Source: Chloroflexota bacterium
GTDB lineage: Bacteria > Chloroflexota > Anaerolineae > Anaerolineales > UBA4823
Direction: 5' to 3'
DNA: 34,095 nt
NCBI GenBank assembly: GCA_030611505.1
Contig: JAUWPO010000009.1
Location: forward strand, 1 to 34,095
In this document: piece after piece, positions 4,669 through 23,075 of the stretch
How positions within the stretch are numbered: the stretch's first letter is position 1
Layout of the letters: every line of letters begins with the position of its first letter
Translations under genes and position numbers: made by a program
Notes under the pieces: model-generated
The model's input: the letters and a program-made list of their open reading frames with translations, nothing else
The model's database searches: none
Told to the model about the DNA's origin: nothing

Positions 4669-5361
4669 TTGACTGATCAATCTAATGTTTCTAATAACTA
4701 TCAAACACTGGATAAATCTAAAACAATAATTATGTTTCCTGATGGAATTCCATATTCCAAACGTTTTTTTGACCTTCTTTTCACCTCTATCGGTTTGGTG
4801 ATTATCTCACCCGTTCTAGCCATCATCGCTATTCTCGTCCGGATGACTCACGGTAAACCCATTCTTTTTCATCAGATTCGCCCTGGCTATTTGGGTAAAC
4901 CATTCTGTAACTTAAAATTCCGCACTATGTTAGATACGCGTGACGCCAATGGAAACCTGCTTCCTGACGATGAACGGATAACTCCCTTGGGTCACTTCCT
5001 GCGCGTCACAAGTTTGGATGAACTACCCGAGTTATTTAACGTTATACGCGGCGAGATGAGTCTGGTTGGGCCGCGTCCGCTGCTTCTGGAATACCTCGAT
5101 CGCTATACAACCGAACAAGCCCGCCGGCACGAAGTCTTACCCGGGATAACCGGTTGGGCGCAAGTCAATGGACGCAATATCCTTACTTGGGAGGACAAAT
5201 TTCGATACGATGTGTGGTATGTAGATCACAGATCACTGGGGCTCGATATTAATATCTTGTGGATAACATTCTGGAAGGTCCTCAAACGGGAAGGGATAAG
5301 CCAACCGGGTCATGCCACTGCGGAGAAATTTATGGGGAGTAAAGAGCAACCCGACGAATAA
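4669..5361 (+). CDS. Bacterial sugar transferase (PglC/WcaJ-type undecaprenyl-phosphate sugar phosphotransferase)
   Basis: KRFFDLLFTSIGLVIISPVLAIIAILVR, PILFHQIRPGYLGKPFCNLKFRTM, DELPELFNVIRGEMSLVGPRPLL, RHEVLPGITGWAQVNGRN. TTG start as called; ATG at 4732 is an alternative. Confidence 0.93.
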   Translation: MTDQSNVSNNYQTLDKSKTIIMFPDGIPYSKRFFDLLFTSIGLVIISPVLAIIAILVRMTHGKPILFHQIRPGYLGKPFCNLKFRTMLDTRDANGNLLPDDERITPLGHFLRVTSLDELPELFNVIRGEMSLVGPRPLLLEYLDRYTTEQARRHEVLPGITGWAQVNGRNILTWEDKFRYDVWYVDHRSLGLDINILWITFWKVLKREGISQPGHATAEKFMGSKEQPDE

Positions 5362-5392: not shown

Positions 5393-5419
5393 TTGACCAG
5401 CAAGGTTTTATGCTATACT
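5393..5419 (+). promoter_or_regulatory. Candidate promoter TTGACC - 15 bp - (TGC)TATACT, extended -10
   Basis: TTGACC 5393-5398, TG at 5411-5412, TATACT 5414-5419. Predicted start about 5426, almost at the ATG at 5428. Confidence 0.4.
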
Positions 5420-6348
5420 TCACCGCAATGTCTGACGACAATACACTTTACGAAGATTTGTTACGAATCCGTCGTTTTGAAGAAGCAGTCCTGGACAACT
5501 TCCCAAAGGGCGTTTTTTTTGGCACCACCCACACCTATCTCGGTCAGGAAGCAAACGCGGTGGGGGTTTTGGATGACATCCACTCAGGAGACATAGTCTT
5601 CAGCAACCATCGCGGTCACGGGCACTTCCTCGCTTATGGAGGAGATATTCGATCGCTTTTTGCCGAGTTAATGGGAAAAACAACCGGTGTATGCGGCGGG
5701 CGCGGCGGCTCTCAACACTTACAGTGGCAAAATTTTTACTCCAATGGCGTACAGGGTGGAATCATCCCGATTGCTACTGGTATGGCTCTGGCTGAAAAAC
5801 GAAAATACAGTGACGCAATCGTGATCGCCTTCATGGGCGATGGCACTCTGGGTGAAGGTGTGGTTTATGAAGCGTTAAATATGGCTTCCTTATGGCAGGC
5901 TCCGATCTTATTCGTCCTGGAAAACAACCGCATAGCACAGACCACTCCAATTGAGATGGCAGTCGCAGGAGACATTTCGGCTCGTTTCAAGGCGTTTAAC
6001 ATAATGGTTCGCGAATTAGATTCTAGTGACGTGAAAGAGATACTGCCGGTAGCCGCTGAACTTATTGCGGAAGTACGGTCTTTGAAATCGCCGCGCACAT
6101 TAATCCTGAACACGTACCGCTTTGGACCCCACTCAAAGGGAGATGATATACGGGATAAGCACGAAATCGACCAATTACGGGTGGAGCGTGATCCGATCCT
6201 TATTCACGCCCACCGATTGGATTCAAACCACAAAGAAGCTATTGAATTGAAAGTTGAAAAGTATATTCAAGAAGCATTCAATCAGGCTCTCGCGGATCCT
6301 CTCCCTGATGCAAGTAAAGCTCTCACCGGATCTATTAACCATCAATAA
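5410..6348 (+). CDS. Thiamine-diphosphate-dependent 2-oxoacid (pyruvate/acetoin-type) dehydrogenase E1 component, alpha subunit
   Basis: GDGTLGEGVVYEALNMASLWQAPILFVLENN (ThDP-binding GDG...NN), HRGHGHFLAYGGDIRSLFAELMGKTTGVCGGRGGSQHL. ATG at 5428 is a likely alternative start. Confidence 0.93.
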   Translation: MLYFTAMSDDNTLYEDLLRIRRFEEAVLDNFPKGVFFGTTHTYLGQEANAVGVLDDIHSGDIVFSNHRGHGHFLAYGGDIRSLFAELMGKTTGVCGGRGGSQHLQWQNFYSNGVQGGIIPIATGMALAEKRKYSDAIVIAFMGDGTLGEGVVYEALNMASLWQAPILFVLENNRIAQTTPIEMAVAGDISARFKAFNIMVRELDSSDVKEILPVAAELIAEVRSLKSPRTLILNTYRFGPHSKGDDIRDKHEIDQLRVERDPILIHAHRLDSNHKEAIELKVEKYIQEAFNQALADPLPDASKALTGSINHQ

Positions 6349-6439
6349 CTTTGACTGTATGAACAGTAGACTCGTTCCATTTCATTGTCCCTTTTTATTA
6401 TATTTTCCCCTATCCCATTAAATTTATCCCTTAATTCCT

Positions 6440-7498
6440 ATGCCAACAGTTTTATACGCCCTCAACGCCGCCCTGCAGAATGCACTCGCTTCAGATGAAC
6501 GCGTTGTTATTATGGGAGAAGATATCCTGGATCCCTATGGGGGTGCATTCAAAGTAACACGTGGTCTATCGGACTCATTCCCGGACCGAGTGATCACAAC
6601 TCCAATATCCGAAGCTGGTATAGTAGGCATAGCCGCCGGAATGGCATTGCGCGGATTGCTTCCGGTTGTAGAGATAATGTTTGGAGATTTCATCACTCTG
6701 ATCGCAGATCAAGTAATAAACCATGCCGCTAAATTCCGCTGGATGTATAACGACCAGGTTAGGGTTCCAATCGTAATCCGGACTCCCATGGGTGGCAGGC
6801 GGGGTTATGGTCCAACTCATAGCCAAACCATGGAAAAATTTTTTATCGGTGTACCAGGTCTGAGGGTTCTCGCCCCCAATACGTTTAGCGATCCAGGCGA
6901 TTTATTGTCAAAAGCAATTTTTGAAGACAATGATCCGGTTCTGTTCATCGAGAATAAATTGCTTTATTTGAACACAATACATGACAGCAACCGCTTATCG
7001 GAGTTTGAATTCTTCGAACAAACCCCGGAGCCGAATTTTTACCATCATTCCAAGCACAATGGCACAATAGCGGATCTTTCGAACAACTATGCTCCGACCT
7101 GCATGCTTTCGCTACGAGATGCTCCTCCACCAGTATTAACAATAGCAGCATACGGGTATATATCAGAATTCGCATATCAAGCTGCATTAAATCTGGCTTA
7201 CGAATACGAAGTCTTTACCGAACTGGTCTACCCCACCCAATTATCTCCCTGCGATATGGGAGCGATCCTTTCATCGACCAAGCGCACTGGACGGCTGTTG
7301 GTCGTTGAAGAAGGCACACATAATCTCGGATGGGGAGCAGAAGTAATCGCGCAAACCGCTGAAAACCTTGGTTCTCGCCTGCTAAGCGCACGACGTATTG
7401 CTGCCTTAAATCTGCCGATTCCAGCTAGCGGTCCTCTCGAAGAAGCCGTATTGCCCGGGATTGAGCATATAATACAGGCAGCCCAAAAGATGGTATAA
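6440..7498 (+). CDS. 2-oxoacid dehydrogenase E1 component, beta subunit (transketolase-like)
   Basis: VVIMGEDILDPYGGAFKVTRGL, PISEAGIVGIAAGMALRGLLPVVEIMFGDF, RRGYGPTHSQTMEKFFIGVPGL. Confidence 0.93.
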   Translation: MPTVLYALNAALQNALASDERVVIMGEDILDPYGGAFKVTRGLSDSFPDRVITTPISEAGIVGIAAGMALRGLLPVVEIMFGDFITLIADQVINHAAKFRWMYNDQVRVPIVIRTPMGGRRGYGPTHSQTMEKFFIGVPGLRVLAPNTFSDPGDLLSKAIFEDNDPVLFIENKLLYLNTIHDSNRLSEFEFFEQTPEPNFYHHSKHNGTIADLSNNYAPTCMLSLRDAPPPVLTIAAYGYISEFAYQAALNLAYEYEVFTELVYPTQLSPCDMGAILSSTKRTGRLLVVEEGTHNLGWGAEVIAQTAENLGSRLLSARRIAALNLPIPASGPLEEAVLPGIEHIIQAAQKMV

Positions 7499-7531
7499 AA
7501 ACTTTCGGTTTTCAAAATAAAATGACCTGGA

Positions 7532-8701
7532 TTGACTGTATTGAACGAAAAATTTGCTGTACTCATTCCTCTACTTAACCCAAACGAGCAAGAAGTTGCA
7601 ATTACCGCTCTTCATGTTGTCGAAGGACAGCCGGTTGCAAGTGGCGATGTTCTTTGCACAATCGAAACCACGAAATCGGCTGCAGATATTGAGGCGGATA
7701 GGGATGGATTCGTGGTTAATCTGCGCTACAAGCAGGGAGACACAACTTTAGCCGGGAACATACTCTGCTACCTTGCAGAATCTCCAACCTGGACTCCGCC
7801 TAACGATACGGACGTCAATATAGAACCTGGTGATCTAGATCAAGCTTTCCTCCAATCCCTAAACGATCTTCCAGACGGATTGCGTGTTACTAAACCAGCC
7901 CTCAGGCTGGCTAACAAACACGGCTTGGATTTAGGTGAACTTCCTAAGAATCGGTTAGTAACTGAAAAAGATGTGCACAATATCTTAAAAGGGCGACAAC
8001 CCACACACGATCCCTATCGCAAGGAGCTGTCCATGGATGAATATTCACTCCCCCAGAAAGCATTTGACTCTCAGGCTATCATCGTTTACGGCGGTGGCGG
8101 TCACGGGAAGGCGTTAGTAGATTTGCTGCGCGCTATGCGGATTTACCAGATTGTTGGGATTGTGGACGATGGGATAGATTCTGACGAGACTATTATGGGT
8201 CTTCCAGTCCTCGGTGGGGGGGATATTCTTAATGAACTGCACACAAAAGGTGTGCTCCAGGCTATCAATGCCGTGGGGGGTATTGGAGATATGAGTATAC
8301 GTACGAAGATTTTCCAGCAATTAGCTGAAGCCGGTTTCGTCTGCCCTGCAGTTGCACACCCAACAGCATTCGTTGAACCAAGCGCCTCCCTATCAGGTGG
8401 CTGCCAAATCTTCTCCCATGTATATGTCGGCAGCGAATCGTTTGTGGGTTATGGCGCTATTGTTAATACCGGTGCCATTGTTTCACATGGTTGTATATTG
8501 GATGATTATGCAAATATCTCACCCGGAGCGATATTAGCAGGCAATGTTCACATAGGCAAAAGCACGTTGATCGGAATGGGTGTGACCGTAAACCTGGACG
8601 TTACAATCGGTAAAGGGGCGAGGGTTGGCAACGGGTCTACAATAAAAACGGACGTGCCGGACAATGGTATTGTGCGAGCTGGAACAAGTTGGCCCGACTA
8701 A
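7532..8701 (+). CDS. Fusion: N-terminal lipoyl domain + divergent peripheral-subunit (E3) binding domain + NeuD/PglD-type sugar O/N-acyltransferase (left-handed beta-helix)
   Basis: Lipoyl-lysine motif CTIETTKSAADIEADRDGFV; PSBD-like RVTKPALRLANKHGLDLGELPKNRLVTEKDVHNIL; PglD-like IIVYGGGGHGKALVDLLRAM and GAIVNTGAIVSHGCILDDYANISPGAILAGNVHIG with the conserved His. TTG start. Confidence 0.88.
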   Translation: MTVLNEKFAVLIPLLNPNEQEVAITALHVVEGQPVASGDVLCTIETTKSAADIEADRDGFVVNLRYKQGDTTLAGNILCYLAESPTWTPPNDTDVNIEPGDLDQAFLQSLNDLPDGLRVTKPALRLANKHGLDLGELPKNRLVTEKDVHNILKGRQPTHDPYRKELSMDEYSLPQKAFDSQAIIVYGGGGHGKALVDLLRAMRIYQIVGIVDDGIDSDETIMGLPVLGGGDILNELHTKGVLQAINAVGGIGDMSIRTKIFQQLAEAGFVCPAVAHPTAFVEPSASLSGGCQIFSHVYVGSESFVGYGAIVNTGAIVSHGCILDDYANISPGAILAGNVHIGKSTLIGMGVTVNLDVTIGKGARVGNGSTIKTDVPDNGIVRAGTSWPD

Positions 8702-8748
8702 GCCTCATTTTAAGTAATAATACGAATAACGACCTAGAGGAGTATTAA

Positions 8749-9942
8749 TTGTCACCAAAATTCACTATACCAATGTCCTCTCCGGACCTGACGGAAGCTG
8801 AGCGCCAGGCTGTATCCGCAGTGCTCCAGACCCCATATCTCAGCATGGGCAGGGAATTAGAGGCGTTTGAAGCCGCCTTTTGCAACTTCACAGGCAGCCG
8901 TTCTGCAATAGGAGTTAATTCGGGCACAGCTGGTCTACATTTGTGTGTGCGTGCGGCAGGAATTACGGAAGGTGACATTGTAATTACGACGCCCTTTTCA
9001 TTCGTCTCTTCTACAAATGTACTGCTTTTTGAACGAGCTGTCCCGATCTTTGTGGATGTGGAAGCAACGACCGGCAACATTAACGTTGGTCAGGTGAACC
9101 AGGCTGTAAAGGACATAACAAGCGGCGGCACTGCTGCTGAAAATTGGCTACCCAGTAGTGTTACATTCGATAAAGCGAGATTAAAAGCTATTCTCGTGGT
9201 GGATGTATTCGGACAGCCCTCAGATATGGATCCCATCCTCGAAATCGCCGAGGAACACAATCTTAAAGTGATTGAAGATTCCTGTGAAGCATTGGGGGCT
9301 GAGTATAAGGGCAGGAAAGCCGGTACGCTTGGTGACTATGGCGTATTCGGTTTTTATCCCAACAAGCAAATTACCACTGGAGAAGGCGGTGTTATCGTAA
9401 CGAGTGACGATCGAGCGGCCTCCATAATGCTAGCATTGCGAAACCAAGGACGCGCTCCAGGCGACACCTGGCTAGAGCATTCTTATCTAGGGTATAACTA
9501 CCGGCTAGATGAAATGTCCGCCGCGCTTGGTCGTGTTCAGTTAACAAGGCTGGATGAGATGCTTGCAAAGCGGTCACAGGTCGCCGCCTGGTATGAGAAC
9601 AGATTGTTTGAAATTCCCGAGGTTGAGACTCCACAGGTCGAAAAATCCACATCTCGAATGAGCTGGTTTGTTTATGTTATTCGTTTGACACTTGCTGTCG
9701 ACAGGGATTATGTTGTAAGCGAACTTGAGAAACGTGGGATTCCTGCTAGACCATATTTCGCTCCCATCCATCTTCAACGCTATATGGTTGAGCAATTCGG
9801 TTATAAAGAGGGTGACTACCCGGTTACTGAAGACCTTGGACATCGCAGTCTAGCGCTACCATTTTCAGGTGTAATGAAAGAGACCCAGGTTGATTTTGTT
9901 TGCAGTGCAATCAGGGAAATCATACATCAAGCAGGGATGTAA
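8749..9942 (+). CDS. DegT/DnrJ/EryC1/StrS-family PLP-dependent aminotransferase (nucleotide-sugar aminotransferase, PglE-like)
   Basis: TPYLSMGRELEAFEAAFCNFTGSRSAIGVNSGTAGL, VIEDSCEALGAEYKGRKAGTLGDYGVFGFYPNKQITTGEGGVI (PLP lysine), YNYRLDEMSAALG. TTG start with upstream AGAGGAG. Confidence 0.93.
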   Translation: MSPKFTIPMSSPDLTEAERQAVSAVLQTPYLSMGRELEAFEAAFCNFTGSRSAIGVNSGTAGLHLCVRAAGITEGDIVITTPFSFVSSTNVLLFERAVPIFVDVEATTGNINVGQVNQAVKDITSGGTAAENWLPSSVTFDKARLKAILVVDVFGQPSDMDPILEIAEEHNLKVIEDSCEALGAEYKGRKAGTLGDYGVFGFYPNKQITTGEGGVIVTSDDRAASIMLALRNQGRAPGDTWLEHSYLGYNYRLDEMSAALGRVQLTRLDEMLAKRSQVAAWYENRLFEIPEVETPQVEKSTSRMSWFVYVIRLTLAVDRDYVVSELEKRGIPARPYFAPIHLQRYMVEQFGYKEGDYPVTEDLGHRSLALPFSGVMKETQVDFVCSAIREIIHQAGM

Positions 9943-9986
9943 CTAGATTTGATATACACATTCCACGGAATATTTTATTAACCAAC

Positions 9987-10026
9987 AAAGCCTGGAATTC
10001 GTTGAAAATTAGAATTCCAGGCTTTT
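9987..10026 (+). terminator. Intrinsic terminator between convergent genes
   Basis: AAAGCCTGGAATTC - GTTGAAAATTA - GAATTCCAGGCTTTT: 14-bp perfect stem followed by T's. Confidence 0.85.
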
Positions 10027-10107
10027 CGCATATCTCTACTACCGGCTTGCTGGTAAGTGGTTTATTTGACCAGTATAGATCCCCACAATCAAACCGAAAG
10101 CATGCTG

Positions 10108-11220
10108 CTACTTCAGATGACCAGCGATAACCAACCCGGCGTGATACTTACCGCTGCCTAAATCCTCAACGCCTACCAACACTTTCATACCGGCTTCCAA
10201 ATCATCTAGACTCTGAACTTGAGTATTACGGCTGCGGAAATGCGTATCCTCTGTTACCGAAAATGCGAATTGTTTGCCTTTAGGTGTTTCTATAGTGAAA
10301 GTAGAATTGTCCACGGAAACAACTTCTCCGGTTATTCGCCAATCGTATTTGGGCAGTTGATCCTGTGCCGCGGCTGCAACCATTAACGCTTCAAGCGGTG
10401 GAATCTGCTCAGTATCAATCTCTCCACCAGGTGTTTTCGCAGAGATGAATGCTTACATATCAGGCTCTAAATCTGCTAGAGTTTCTATAGAACCTTCACG
10501 GCTGCGGAAACCTGTTTCATTGGTCACAATAATCGTCACATCCTTATCACCACGCCGAGTGAGCAATGTAAATGTACCCGCTGATGTGTCAACCTCGCTT
10601 ATTCTGCCAGTCAACTTTACGATCGGATAGCGTGCTCTAACAGCAAGCGCAAGCAGGTTTCCATCATCCAACTTCTTCACACCCGCCCAGGCAAGCATCC
10701 CGTCCTGCAAATCCTTAAGGTTTTCAACACCGCCAGAATAGCGGGTCTCTTCGTTCACCGTGACGATCACGTCATCGCTATTACGTGTCTGCAGTGTAAA
10801 AGTTTCTACTCTGGTATCCACATCGCTTATACGACCGCTCACTCCCTCGTGTTCGGAAGGATTAAAATCTTCCGGTAGGATGACCACTAGGCGCGCCAGC
10901 ATCCCACCACCTTCGTTGCGCACTGCTGTCACCCGCACCCACTGACCGGTTGACAAATCTTCAAACTCAAGTTCAGAGTCGTCGAGTCCTCGAAAGATCG
11001 TATGCTCATCCACCAGGAACGAGCTTTCGTCTTCGTTGGGTTTCTGGAGTGTGAATTGATCTTTTGAGATTGACGTCACCTGTCCAACTGTATGTGCACC
11101 TTTCCGAGGGCGTCTGCGCGAACTTGGATCTAGAGCAAAAGCTTCATCGCTCACCCACACTCCGGCGATCAGAGCCACCAAAGCGGATATAACAACAGGG
11201 ATGTATATTTTCTTGAACAT
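10108..11220 (-). pseudogene. Secreted DUF5666-like multi-repeat protein interrupted by an in-frame TAA at 10453-10455 (called as ORFs 10453-11220 and 10108-10383)
   Basis: Signal peptide MFKKIYIPVVISALVALIAGVWVSDEAFA; repeated G.I..VDT...TFTLQTR..D.V.VNEET blocks. The two ORFs are in the same frame (11220-10383 = 837 = 3x279) and the repeats continue across the stop. Confidence 0.75.
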
Positions 11221-20693: not shown

Positions 20694-23075
20694 CTATACA
20701 ACGCTGTTAGATATACTCCATTCACCGACCAATTCGATTTCTAATTCAAGTTCGACACCAAACTTTCTCGCTACCGATTTACGCGCCAGTTGAATTAATT
20801 CCCAAACATCACCAGCCGATGAGCTGCCTTGGTTGATGAAAAAATTGGCATGCAATGAACTTATCTCCGCACCACCAATACGAGTACCCTTAAGCCCCAC
20901 CGCTTCAATCAGATGTCCTGCATAATCTCCGGGTGGATTTTTAAACATAGATCCCATACTCGCTCCAGGTGGTTGTGTGCGGTGGCGATGGGAAACAAAG
21001 CTCTTCATCCTGGTCTGAACAGCTTGCGAATCACTGCGTTCCAGTTCTAGGACAGCACTTAAGACGACAAAATCTCCCGGATAACGCTTGATCACACTAT
21101 TGCGGTAAGAATACCCAAATCGTTCTACAGGCCAATGCTTACGCCGGGGTTCGGCATCTTTTGATTTACTTGAACGGTGCAAGATTTCGGCCAATTTTAA
21201 TACCGTAGAAATTTCTCCACCATGCGCTCCCGCATTGCCTACCACTGCTCCACCCAATGTGCCAGGTATCCCTGCCGCCCATTCCAAACCTGATAATCCG
21301 CGTTGGGCGGTCTGGCGAGAAATCACCCCAAAATTCACGCCACTTTCAGCCCATACAGTCGGTGGAGCGGATTCTTCATCAAACATCACCTTTTTGGCTT
21401 TATTCAACACCACAACTCCACGTATGCCGGAGTCGCTTACTAATATGTTCGAACCTCCTCCGAGGATAATAAAGGAAACACCGCTTTTCCAAAGCAGAGC
21501 TGCAGCTTGTGCAAGTTCATCAGAAGAATTCACCTCTAATAGCACATCTGCAGGACCTCCTATCCGTGCGGCAGTAAAGCGAGCCAGGGGGACATTTTCC
21601 TGTACACGATCGCCGAATATATCTTGCAGCGCTCTCAAGCAGAGGGATTGATTTTGTTTTCGCAAAACAAGCATCGACTGATCAATAATCTGGTTCGCAT
21701 CACCTGCTGAGAGAACAATAACCACATCACCGGGTTGCGTAGTCTTGAGAAGATGATCTCTTGCATCCAGGATGCCAGGCACATAATGCACGTCTGAAGA
21801 AGAATTCTTTTCATTTGATATCGCTTCCACGACCTGCTCAGCCGAGAACCCGTTCTCAGGTGCGCTCTCACGAGCCGCATATACATCAGTAACCAGGACA
21901 TGATCGGCGTCCCGAAATGCTCCTGCGAATTCGGTAAATAAAGTCCGAGTGCGAGAGTACGTATGGGGCTGCCACACCGCCCAAATATTGCGGTTAGGGA
22001 ATCGCATACGTGCTGCGGAAAGTGTGGCCATTATCTCCGTTGGATGGTGGGCATAGTCATCGATAAATGTTACATGTTGGGCTTCACCGCGAACCTCGAA
22101 TCTTCTCTCGGTTCCTCGAAACCTACTTATCTCACTCGCTGCCTCAACGACAGACACACCGATCAAATCCGATACCGCCAAAGCAGCCGTAGCGTTACGA
22201 ACATTATGAATACCTGGAACTTGTAAGGAAACCTTTGCACGTCTTTCGACGTCCTCACCTACAAATTCAAAGTTATAGCCACCCAGGTCATTCAAAACCA
22301 AGTTTTTCGCCTGGTAATCGTAATATATTGCACTTTGAACTAATTTGACCCTGTATTGCTCATCAGAAATCCCGTAAACAAGTGATCTATCCGGTGGAAT
22401 ATTTGTTTCATTAAGTAGACGAGAAGCACCAGGGTCATCACCACAAACAAGCAGTGCTCCATCCGGTTCTATTTGCATAAGAAAATCTAGAAATGCATGG
22501 TAGAAATCCTGTGATGTTGGAAAACAATCTGGGTGATCGTGCTCCACGCTTGTCACAACAGCAATATAAGGTTGCAATCCTAAAAACATACGATCGTATT
22601 CGTCTGCTTCGATAATAAAGTGATTGCCCCGACCAGCATGAGCGTTATTACAAAGGTCTTTAGACTCACTGCCGATAATATAAGAAGGATCATATTTTAA
22701 CTGGCTAAGAATCCAGGCGATCATCGCCGTTGTAGTTGTCTTTCCATGGGTACCTGCAATAGCGACACATCGCTGATCCGCAATAACCTGACTTAGAAAA
22801 TCTGCCCGTTTCATGACCTGGATACCGGCTTTTACTGAAGCTAACACTTCTACGTTGTCATCTGGTATCGCCGATGAGCGTAAAACAATATCTGCTCCGC
22901 TAATATTTTCTGCGCTATGACCAAGATAGACGTCTACTCCGGCAGCCTGTAACCGCTTGGTTTGGGGTGATACCTGACGATCAGAACCGCTCACCTTAAA
23001 GCCGCGTTCCAACATCACCATCGCAATGGCTGAAAGACCAGTACCACCTATACCGATAAAATGAATCTTGGTCAT
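20694..23075 (-). CDS. murC-murB: MurC-MurB fusion: UDP-N-acetylmuramate--L-alanine ligase + UDP-N-acetylenolpyruvoylglucosamine reductase
   Basis: MurC half: IHFIGIGGTGLSAIAMVM, AGTHGKTTTTAMIAW; MurB half: TAARIGGPADVLLEV, ILGGGSNILVSDSGIRGVVV, GASMGSMFKNPPGDYAGHLIEAVGLKG. One uninterrupted 793-aa frame. Confidence 0.95.
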   Translation of the reverse strand: MTKIHFIGIGGTGLSAIAMVMLERGFKVSGSDRQVSPQTKRLQAAGVDVYLGHSAENISGADIVLRSSAIPDDNVEVLASVKAGIQVMKRADFLSQVIADQRCVAIAGTHGKTTTTAMIAWILSQLKYDPSYIIGSESKDLCNNAHAGRGNHFIIEADEYDRMFLGLQPYIAVVTSVEHDHPDCFPTSQDFYHAFLDFLMQIEPDGALLVCGDDPGASRLLNETNIPPDRSLVYGISDEQYRVKLVQSAIYYDYQAKNLVLNDLGGYNFEFVGEDVERRAKVSLQVPGIHNVRNATAALAVSDLIGVSVVEAASEISRFRGTERRFEVRGEAQHVTFIDDYAHHPTEIMATLSAARMRFPNRNIWAVWQPHTYSRTRTLFTEFAGAFRDADHVLVTDVYAARESAPENGFSAEQVVEAISNEKNSSSDVHYVPGILDARDHLLKTTQPGDVVIVLSAGDANQIIDQSMLVLRKQNQSLCLRALQDIFGDRVQENVPLARFTAARIGGPADVLLEVNSSDELAQAAALLWKSGVSFIILGGGSNILVSDSGIRGVVVLNKAKKVMFDEESAPPTVWAESGVNFGVISRQTAQRGLSGLEWAAGIPGTLGGAVVGNAGAHGGEISTVLKLAEILHRSSKSKDAEPRRKHWPVERFGYSYRNSVIKRYPGDFVVLSAVLELERSDSQAVQTRMKSFVSHRHRTQPPGASMGSMFKNPPGDYAGHLIEAVGLKGTRIGGAEISSLHANFFINQGSSSAGDVWELIQLARKSVARKFGVELELEIELVGEWSISNSVV

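Follow-up and report, generated by a model that had tools for sequence, protein, structure and literature searches.

In place of the catalytic core expected of an E2, a single protein encoded by a Chloroflexota bacterium (assembly GCA_030611505.1, contig JAUWPO010000009.1) carries a sugar N-acyltransferase of the NeuD/PglD type behind a lipoyl domain and a divergent E3/E1-binding segment (PSBD), an architecture now confirmed in the window, that is, in the whole 34,095-nucleotide stretch of DNA that was analysed. A probable function of this fusion, held with good though incomplete confidence, is that a dedicated E1 charges the lipoyl arm and that the beta-helix domain passes the acyl group directly to a nucleotide-linked amino sugar, free of CoA. 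The fusion and its parts are located as follows.

7532..8701, + strand: lipoyl-PSBD-PglD fusion, 389 aa (Pfam, NCBIfam, AlphaFold2)
7553..7783, + strand: lipoyl domain, residues 8-84 (Pfam PF00364; AlphaFold2 barrel)
7673..7675, + strand: lipoyl-attachment Lys48 in the motif ETTK (E45, T47 and K48 each in 81/81 sequences)
7865..7999, + strand: divergent PSBD, residues 112-156, without the GTGxGGR loop (hhalign, AlphaFold2, Foldseek)
8078..8323, + strand: PglD_N Rossmann-like nucleotide-sugar part, residues 183-264 (Pfam; His191, Asp212 and Asp213 invariant)
8345..8689, + strand: left-handed beta-helix acyltransferase core, residues 272-386 (Pfam, AlphaFold2, Foldseek)
8486..8488, + strand: catalytic-type His319, equivalent to PglD His125 (80/81; aligned to the PerB/PglB His)
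8468..8470, + strand: Thr313 (81/81 fusions; substituted in lipoyl-less relatives)
8567..8569, + strand: Leu346 (81/81 fusions; Gln in most lipoyl-less relatives)

As the preliminary description had stated, the frame is uninterrupted over its whole length. Its start codon is TTG, and a second in-frame TTG, at 7541, could equally be the start. Among the Pfam families to which that description pointed, Biotin_lipoyl (PF00364, residues 19-81, E 3e-11) and Hexapep (E 1.5e-11) are matched in the window protein together with PglD_N (residues 183-264, E 1.5e-13), whereas E3_binding gives no match there at E<=1. The NCBIfam model TIGR03570 (NeuD/PglB/VioB) scores the fusion at 167.5 bits against a cut-off of 160.8, which places it within that family; the CAT-type acyltransferase core (PF00198) is absent from the fusion by Pfam and is encoded by two genes elsewhere in the genome. 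An AlphaFold2 model of the monomer (mean pLDDT 89, the domains confident and two linkers flexible) has a lipoyl barrel at residues 8-82, a two-helix PSBD-like fold at 121-152, a Rossmann part at 182-266 and then the beta-helix, and in Foldseek searches the C-terminal half leads to PerB, PglB and PglD structures and the lipoyl part to human PDH lipoyl domains. The N-terminal lipoyl domain with its lysine, and the PglD-like Rossmann and beta-helix parts with a catalytic-type histidine, all proposed at the outset, are thus upheld.

E3_binding also lies outside the 25 commonest Pfam families among 78 homologues, and because Pfam was negative the PSBD was approached by profile-profile and fold comparison. 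The segment aligns with real PSBDs in hhalign (P 8e-6, probability 65%), and its 45 residues, modelled alone in AlphaFold2 (pLDDT 91), yield a structure whose first 18 Foldseek matches are all PSBDs, alone or inside E2 models, some of them in complex with E1 or with E3 (best E 0.13). A six-sequence PSBD HMM, used alone, gives a weak signal (best 6.5 bits, against 4.9 in shuffles). On profile and predicted-fold comparison the segment may be counted as a PSBD, in the divergent form lacking GTGxGGR that had been proposed.

Full-length homologues number 80 in 85,462 species genomes, nearly all of them Anaerolineae/Anaerolineales MAGs, and every domain recurs jointly in these relatives, far above chance. 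Their independent occurrence across many MAGs and families rules out an assembly chimera or frameshift joining E2 and PglD genes, an explanation for which no supporting point was found and which is next to impossible; the two objections foreseen in the preliminary description, a chimeric origin and an architecture absent from relatives, both fall, the architecture being widespread. Across 81 sequences no substitution occurs at E45, T47 or K48 of the lipoyl motif or at D212, D213 or N312, and a single sequence lacks H319. In PglD, Asp35 and Asp36 bind the UDP-sugar and His125 is the catalytic histidine (PMC8040287); the counterparts in the fusion are Asp212, Asp213 and His319. The conserved residues are, by alignment, those required for the lipoyl arm, for nucleotide-sugar binding and for catalysis. 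On viral contigs the PglD relatives all stand alone, without the fusion, and on plasmids no place covers 80% of the fusion query. On a 2.5-kb contig labelled Desulfosarcina (L111) the fusion is nested among Anaerolineaceae sequences; this contig is probably mis-binned or the product of a recent transfer.

The genes around the fusion in the window run in the order PglC-like, E1-alpha, E1-beta, fusion, PglE-like aminotransferase.

4669..5361, + strand: PglC-like initiating sugar phosphotransferase (Bac_transf; Pfam PF02397, E 1e-62)
5410..6348, + strand: E1-alpha, ThDP-dependent (Pfam PF00676, E 5e-52; tree 100/100; GDG...NN and His conserved)
6440..7498, + strand: E1-beta with the active-site loop GRRGYGPTHSQ (Pfam PF02779/PF02780; tree 100/100; signature residues)
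8749..9942, + strand: DegT/PglE-like aminotransferase, PseC/LegC-like (Pfam PF01041, E 9e-110; NCBIfam PseC/LegC matches below cut-offs)

In 52 of the 54 assessable loci (those with enough sequence around the fusion) both E1 genes precede the fusion; the PglC-like transferase and the PglE-like aminotransferase often accompany the E1 pair, as in the window, and many homologous loci have the PglC-like gene directly before that pair. An unrelated gene sometimes interrupts the arrangement: an antisense membrane-protein gene of ~230-260 aa lies between E1-beta and the fusion in four loci (L118, L122, L127, L131), and an NHL-repeat-like gene takes that position instead in three others (L056, L060, L062). 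In two further loci (L192 of genome G640 and L193 of G605) the E1 pair is present and the fusion frame is broken or truncated, through assembly error or decay. Within the operon no intergenic gap is large enough for an ACP gene. Elsewhere in the window (20694-23075, minus strand) a 793-aa protein reads as a MurC-MurB fusion inside a cell-division/peptidoglycan gene cluster.

Conservation of the sugar-nucleotide residues, together with the PglC/PglE-like neighbours, suggests that the acceptor is a sugar rather than CoA, an addition to the preliminary description, which named no acceptor. On the proposed mechanism, a keto compound would supply the ThDP-dependent E1 (alpha and beta) with an acyl unit, two-carbon or otherwise, for reductive acylation of the lipoyl-lysine K48; the acyl-dihydrolipoyl arm would reach the left-handed beta-helix active site within the same trimer. 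The acceptor would be a nucleotide-linked (UDP-type) 4-amino sugar, the product of the neighbouring DegT aminotransferase; at the active site His319 would activate its amino group, and the acyl group, we infer, would move from lipoyl to the sugar nitrogen directly, without CoA. The PSBD would dock the E1 and/or the cell's single E3, which would reoxidise the arm, and the PglC-like enzyme would then load the N-acyl sugar on a lipid carrier for a surface glycan. That the beta-helix core is instead a true E2 substitute, moving acyl groups from lipoyl to CoA for general metabolism, is very improbable: the E1-E2-like gene order and the trimer analogy drawn in the original reading fit such a role, but the sugar-nucleotide residues are invariant, the partners are PglC and DegT, and two canonical E2s are already present. 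The genome encodes one E3 and, elsewhere, two canonical E1-E2 pairs, and the operon E1 is therefore a third, specialised one; UDP-sugar dehydratase candidates lie at other places. LipA and LplA/LipB were not found in the source genome, which is 86% complete; given that LplA/LipB occurs in 18 of 18 other fusion-bearing genomes tested, an assembly gap likely explains its absence.

Natural losses of the E1-lipoyl module serve as built-in controls. Among 349 genomes of the order surveyed, a lipoyl-bearing PglD occurs in 116, and 112 of these have the operon E1-beta, which is found in none of the 34 genomes whose PglD is without a lipoyl domain (31) or without its lysine (3), an association with Fisher p 1e-29 when kinship is ignored. 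Three of the four exceptions lie at contig edges, two of them with a partial E1-beta there, and one (G508) is a true exception. In the PglD tree the lipoyl-less forms are nested inside the fusion clade at four places. The best tree has four changes, yet only two pairs sit on well-supported branches, and the AU test against a single clade of lipoyl-less forms gives p 0.044; repeated independent loss is therefore claimed cautiously. In relatives of family f99 the operon is reduced to PglC-PglD-DegT, so that E1, lipoyl domain and PSBD departed jointly and the sugar genes remained; the PglD core thereby goes with the sugar, and the E1-lipoyl module with the acyl donor. Three loci (L181, L182, L038) are apparent decay intermediates, in which PglD still bears a lipoyl domain, the Lys position is replaced, the PSBD is gone and the genome is without a dedicated E1. 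An alternative view gives the lipoyl/PSBD half no part in acyl delivery and makes it a tether with a regulatory or redox role, such as the sensing of lipoylation or of NADH via E3; it draws on the side roles that lipoyl domains can have. The close association of this half with a dedicated E1, and the loss of the two together, argue against that view, which is highly unlikely.

The same losses bear on whether the fusion achieves channelling only, with the acyl group passing first to CoA (canonical E2 or free CoA) and the PglD domain acting as an ordinary acyl-CoA-dependent enzyme that the fusion co-localises. PglD relatives of known structure bind acetyl-CoA (PMC8040287), and close lipoyl-less relatives exist that keep the beta-helix core, which is evidently able to use another donor, presumably acyl-CoA; no test revealed loss of the CoA site in this core. 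However, the fusion has no CAT core to make acyl-CoA, and the genomes that lost E1 and lipoyl changed residues near the active site, as if the donor or the acyl group had changed: the fusion-invariant T313 is altered in all four loss lineages, L346 has become Gln in three of the four, and in place of F294 three lineages have Leu and one has Tyr. Judging from the 18-residue repeat, these positions would sit on coils beside the catalytic His, and shared descent may account for part of the pattern. Channelling alone thus appears rather unlikely, and direct transfer from the lipoyl arm to the sugar is the reading that we retain.

Both E1 trees rule out a PDH-, acetoin- or branched-chain-type identity for the operon E1. 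Its subunits stand apart from those three types and from both canonical E1s of the genome, and each groups (100/100) with RenH of the renieramycin cluster and three actinomycete E1s, one of whose loci is a cassette of ACP, E1-alpha, E1-beta and E2 adjoining an NRPS gene. RenH is also the best match of both subunits among plasmid records (47% identity each), and active-site-loop residues are common with the cassette E1s (GYGPTHSQ in E1-beta, IAQ[TS]T in E1-alpha). Likewise, the lipoyl-PSBD half scores 64 bits against RenI, 64 against a Streptomyces cassette E2 and 56 against that of S. cattleyicolor, as opposed to 27-52 bits against canonical E2s, a range into which the Nonomuraea cassette E2 (49) also falls, and a short PSBD loop is common to the fusion and the cassette E2s. 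Given this E1 ancestry, these bit scores and this loop, the fusion resembles an E2 of natural-product type in which PglD has taken the place of the CAT core that the closest cassette E2s still bear; the original proposal of an E2 with a swapped catalytic core fits well with this kinship and with the E1 genes that precede the fusion.

QncN, QncL and QncM are reported to assemble a C2-glycolicacyl unit and to transfer it via lipoyl to ACP, and SclQ1-4 are proposed to take a C2 unit from a ketose phosphate (PMC6335953). From E1 clade membership and this published account of related cassettes, the acyl group may be glycolyl (hydroxyacetyl), a prediction of moderate strength, the trees having sampled RenH and actinomycete cassette-type E1s but no QncN, QncL or SclQ sequence. 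A second fusion clade, in a different class, is 26% identical and has the canonical ETDK motif. Its member G158 has the order PglC, Gfo/Idh, fusion, E1-alpha, E1-beta, DegT, the same five functions rearranged, and in G302 the same parts are split across two contigs; these are the only two members among 160 genomes of that class. The fuller proposal, that N-glycolyl amino sugars of Anaerolineae surface glycans receive their acyl group directly from a lipoyl arm, which the E1 charges with glycolyl derived from a ketose or from hydroxypyruvate, and that the second, distant clade came to the same parts by convergence or ancient transfer, is plausible but falls somewhat short of an even chance.

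The known recipients of acyl groups from lipoyl arms are CoA and, in a few antibiotic pathways, ACP. If the proposed transfer is correct, nucleotide sugars would join CoA and ACP as acceptors, an E2 would have had its catalytic core exchanged for a different fold, and cells would acylate sugars without coenzyme A. The reading predicts, in a form open to direct test, that a large group of bacteria with few cultured members has unusual N-acyl sugars, perhaps N-glycolyl ones. No description of a lipoyl-PglD link was found in the open-access literature, most subscription journals lying outside that search, and the E1-lipoyl-PglD system, widespread in bacteria, is apparently undescribed. Other unusual gene sets were seen on plasmids. 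At 6240-10361 of a Rhizobium leguminosarum plasmid (L036, NZ_CP090094), split transketolase-like genes are followed by genes for a beta-helix acyltransferase resembling PglD, for a hypothetical protein of ~79 aa and for an AMP-binding enzyme. This set may represent a further ThDP-fed acyl pathway with a beta-helix transferase, and several Rhizobium plasmids are similarly annotated; identity with the present system was rejected on the different arrangement. A Paraburkholderia phymatum plasmid (L217, 3459-5997) has a non-canonical E1-lipoyl set, in which E1-alpha/beta precede a free lipoyl protein of 130 aa and an alpha/beta hydrolase that is truncated.

Among known systems, QncN/QncL/QncM, SclQ1-4 and RenH/RenI share with the fusion system a dedicated E1, a lipoyl and PSBD-like carrier and an acyl group diverted from central metabolism, a likeness that was compared by sequence for RenH/RenI and the Streptomyces cassettes and is taken from description only for QncL/SclQ (PMC6335953). 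In both trees the E1 of the fusion system falls in the clade of RenH and the actinomycete cassette-type E1s. The carrier of the QncL/RenI-type cassettes, however, has an E2 core of the CAT type and passes the unit to a partner ACP, whereas the fusion has a PglD core, no room for an ACP and a glycan setting. With NeuD, PglD and PerB (TIGR03570) the fusion has in common the Rossmann part and left-handed beta-helix, the catalytic His, PglC/PglE-like neighbours and the family's residues (H319 in 80/81, D212/D213 in 81/81), but the known members have no lipoyl domain, PSBD or dedicated E1 and use acetyl-CoA as donor. The E2 of 2-oxo acid dehydrogenase complexes likewise has a lipoyl domain, a PSBD-type domain and E1 genes alongside, together with the CAT domain (PF00198) that the fusion lacks. 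Finally, LpxA and LpxD are beta-helix acyltransferases with a protein-bound acyl donor and, as is proposed for the fusion, acylate a UDP-sugar with a group taken from a carrier protein; their carrier is a separate acyl-ACP, whereas that of the fusion would be its own fused lipoyl domain.
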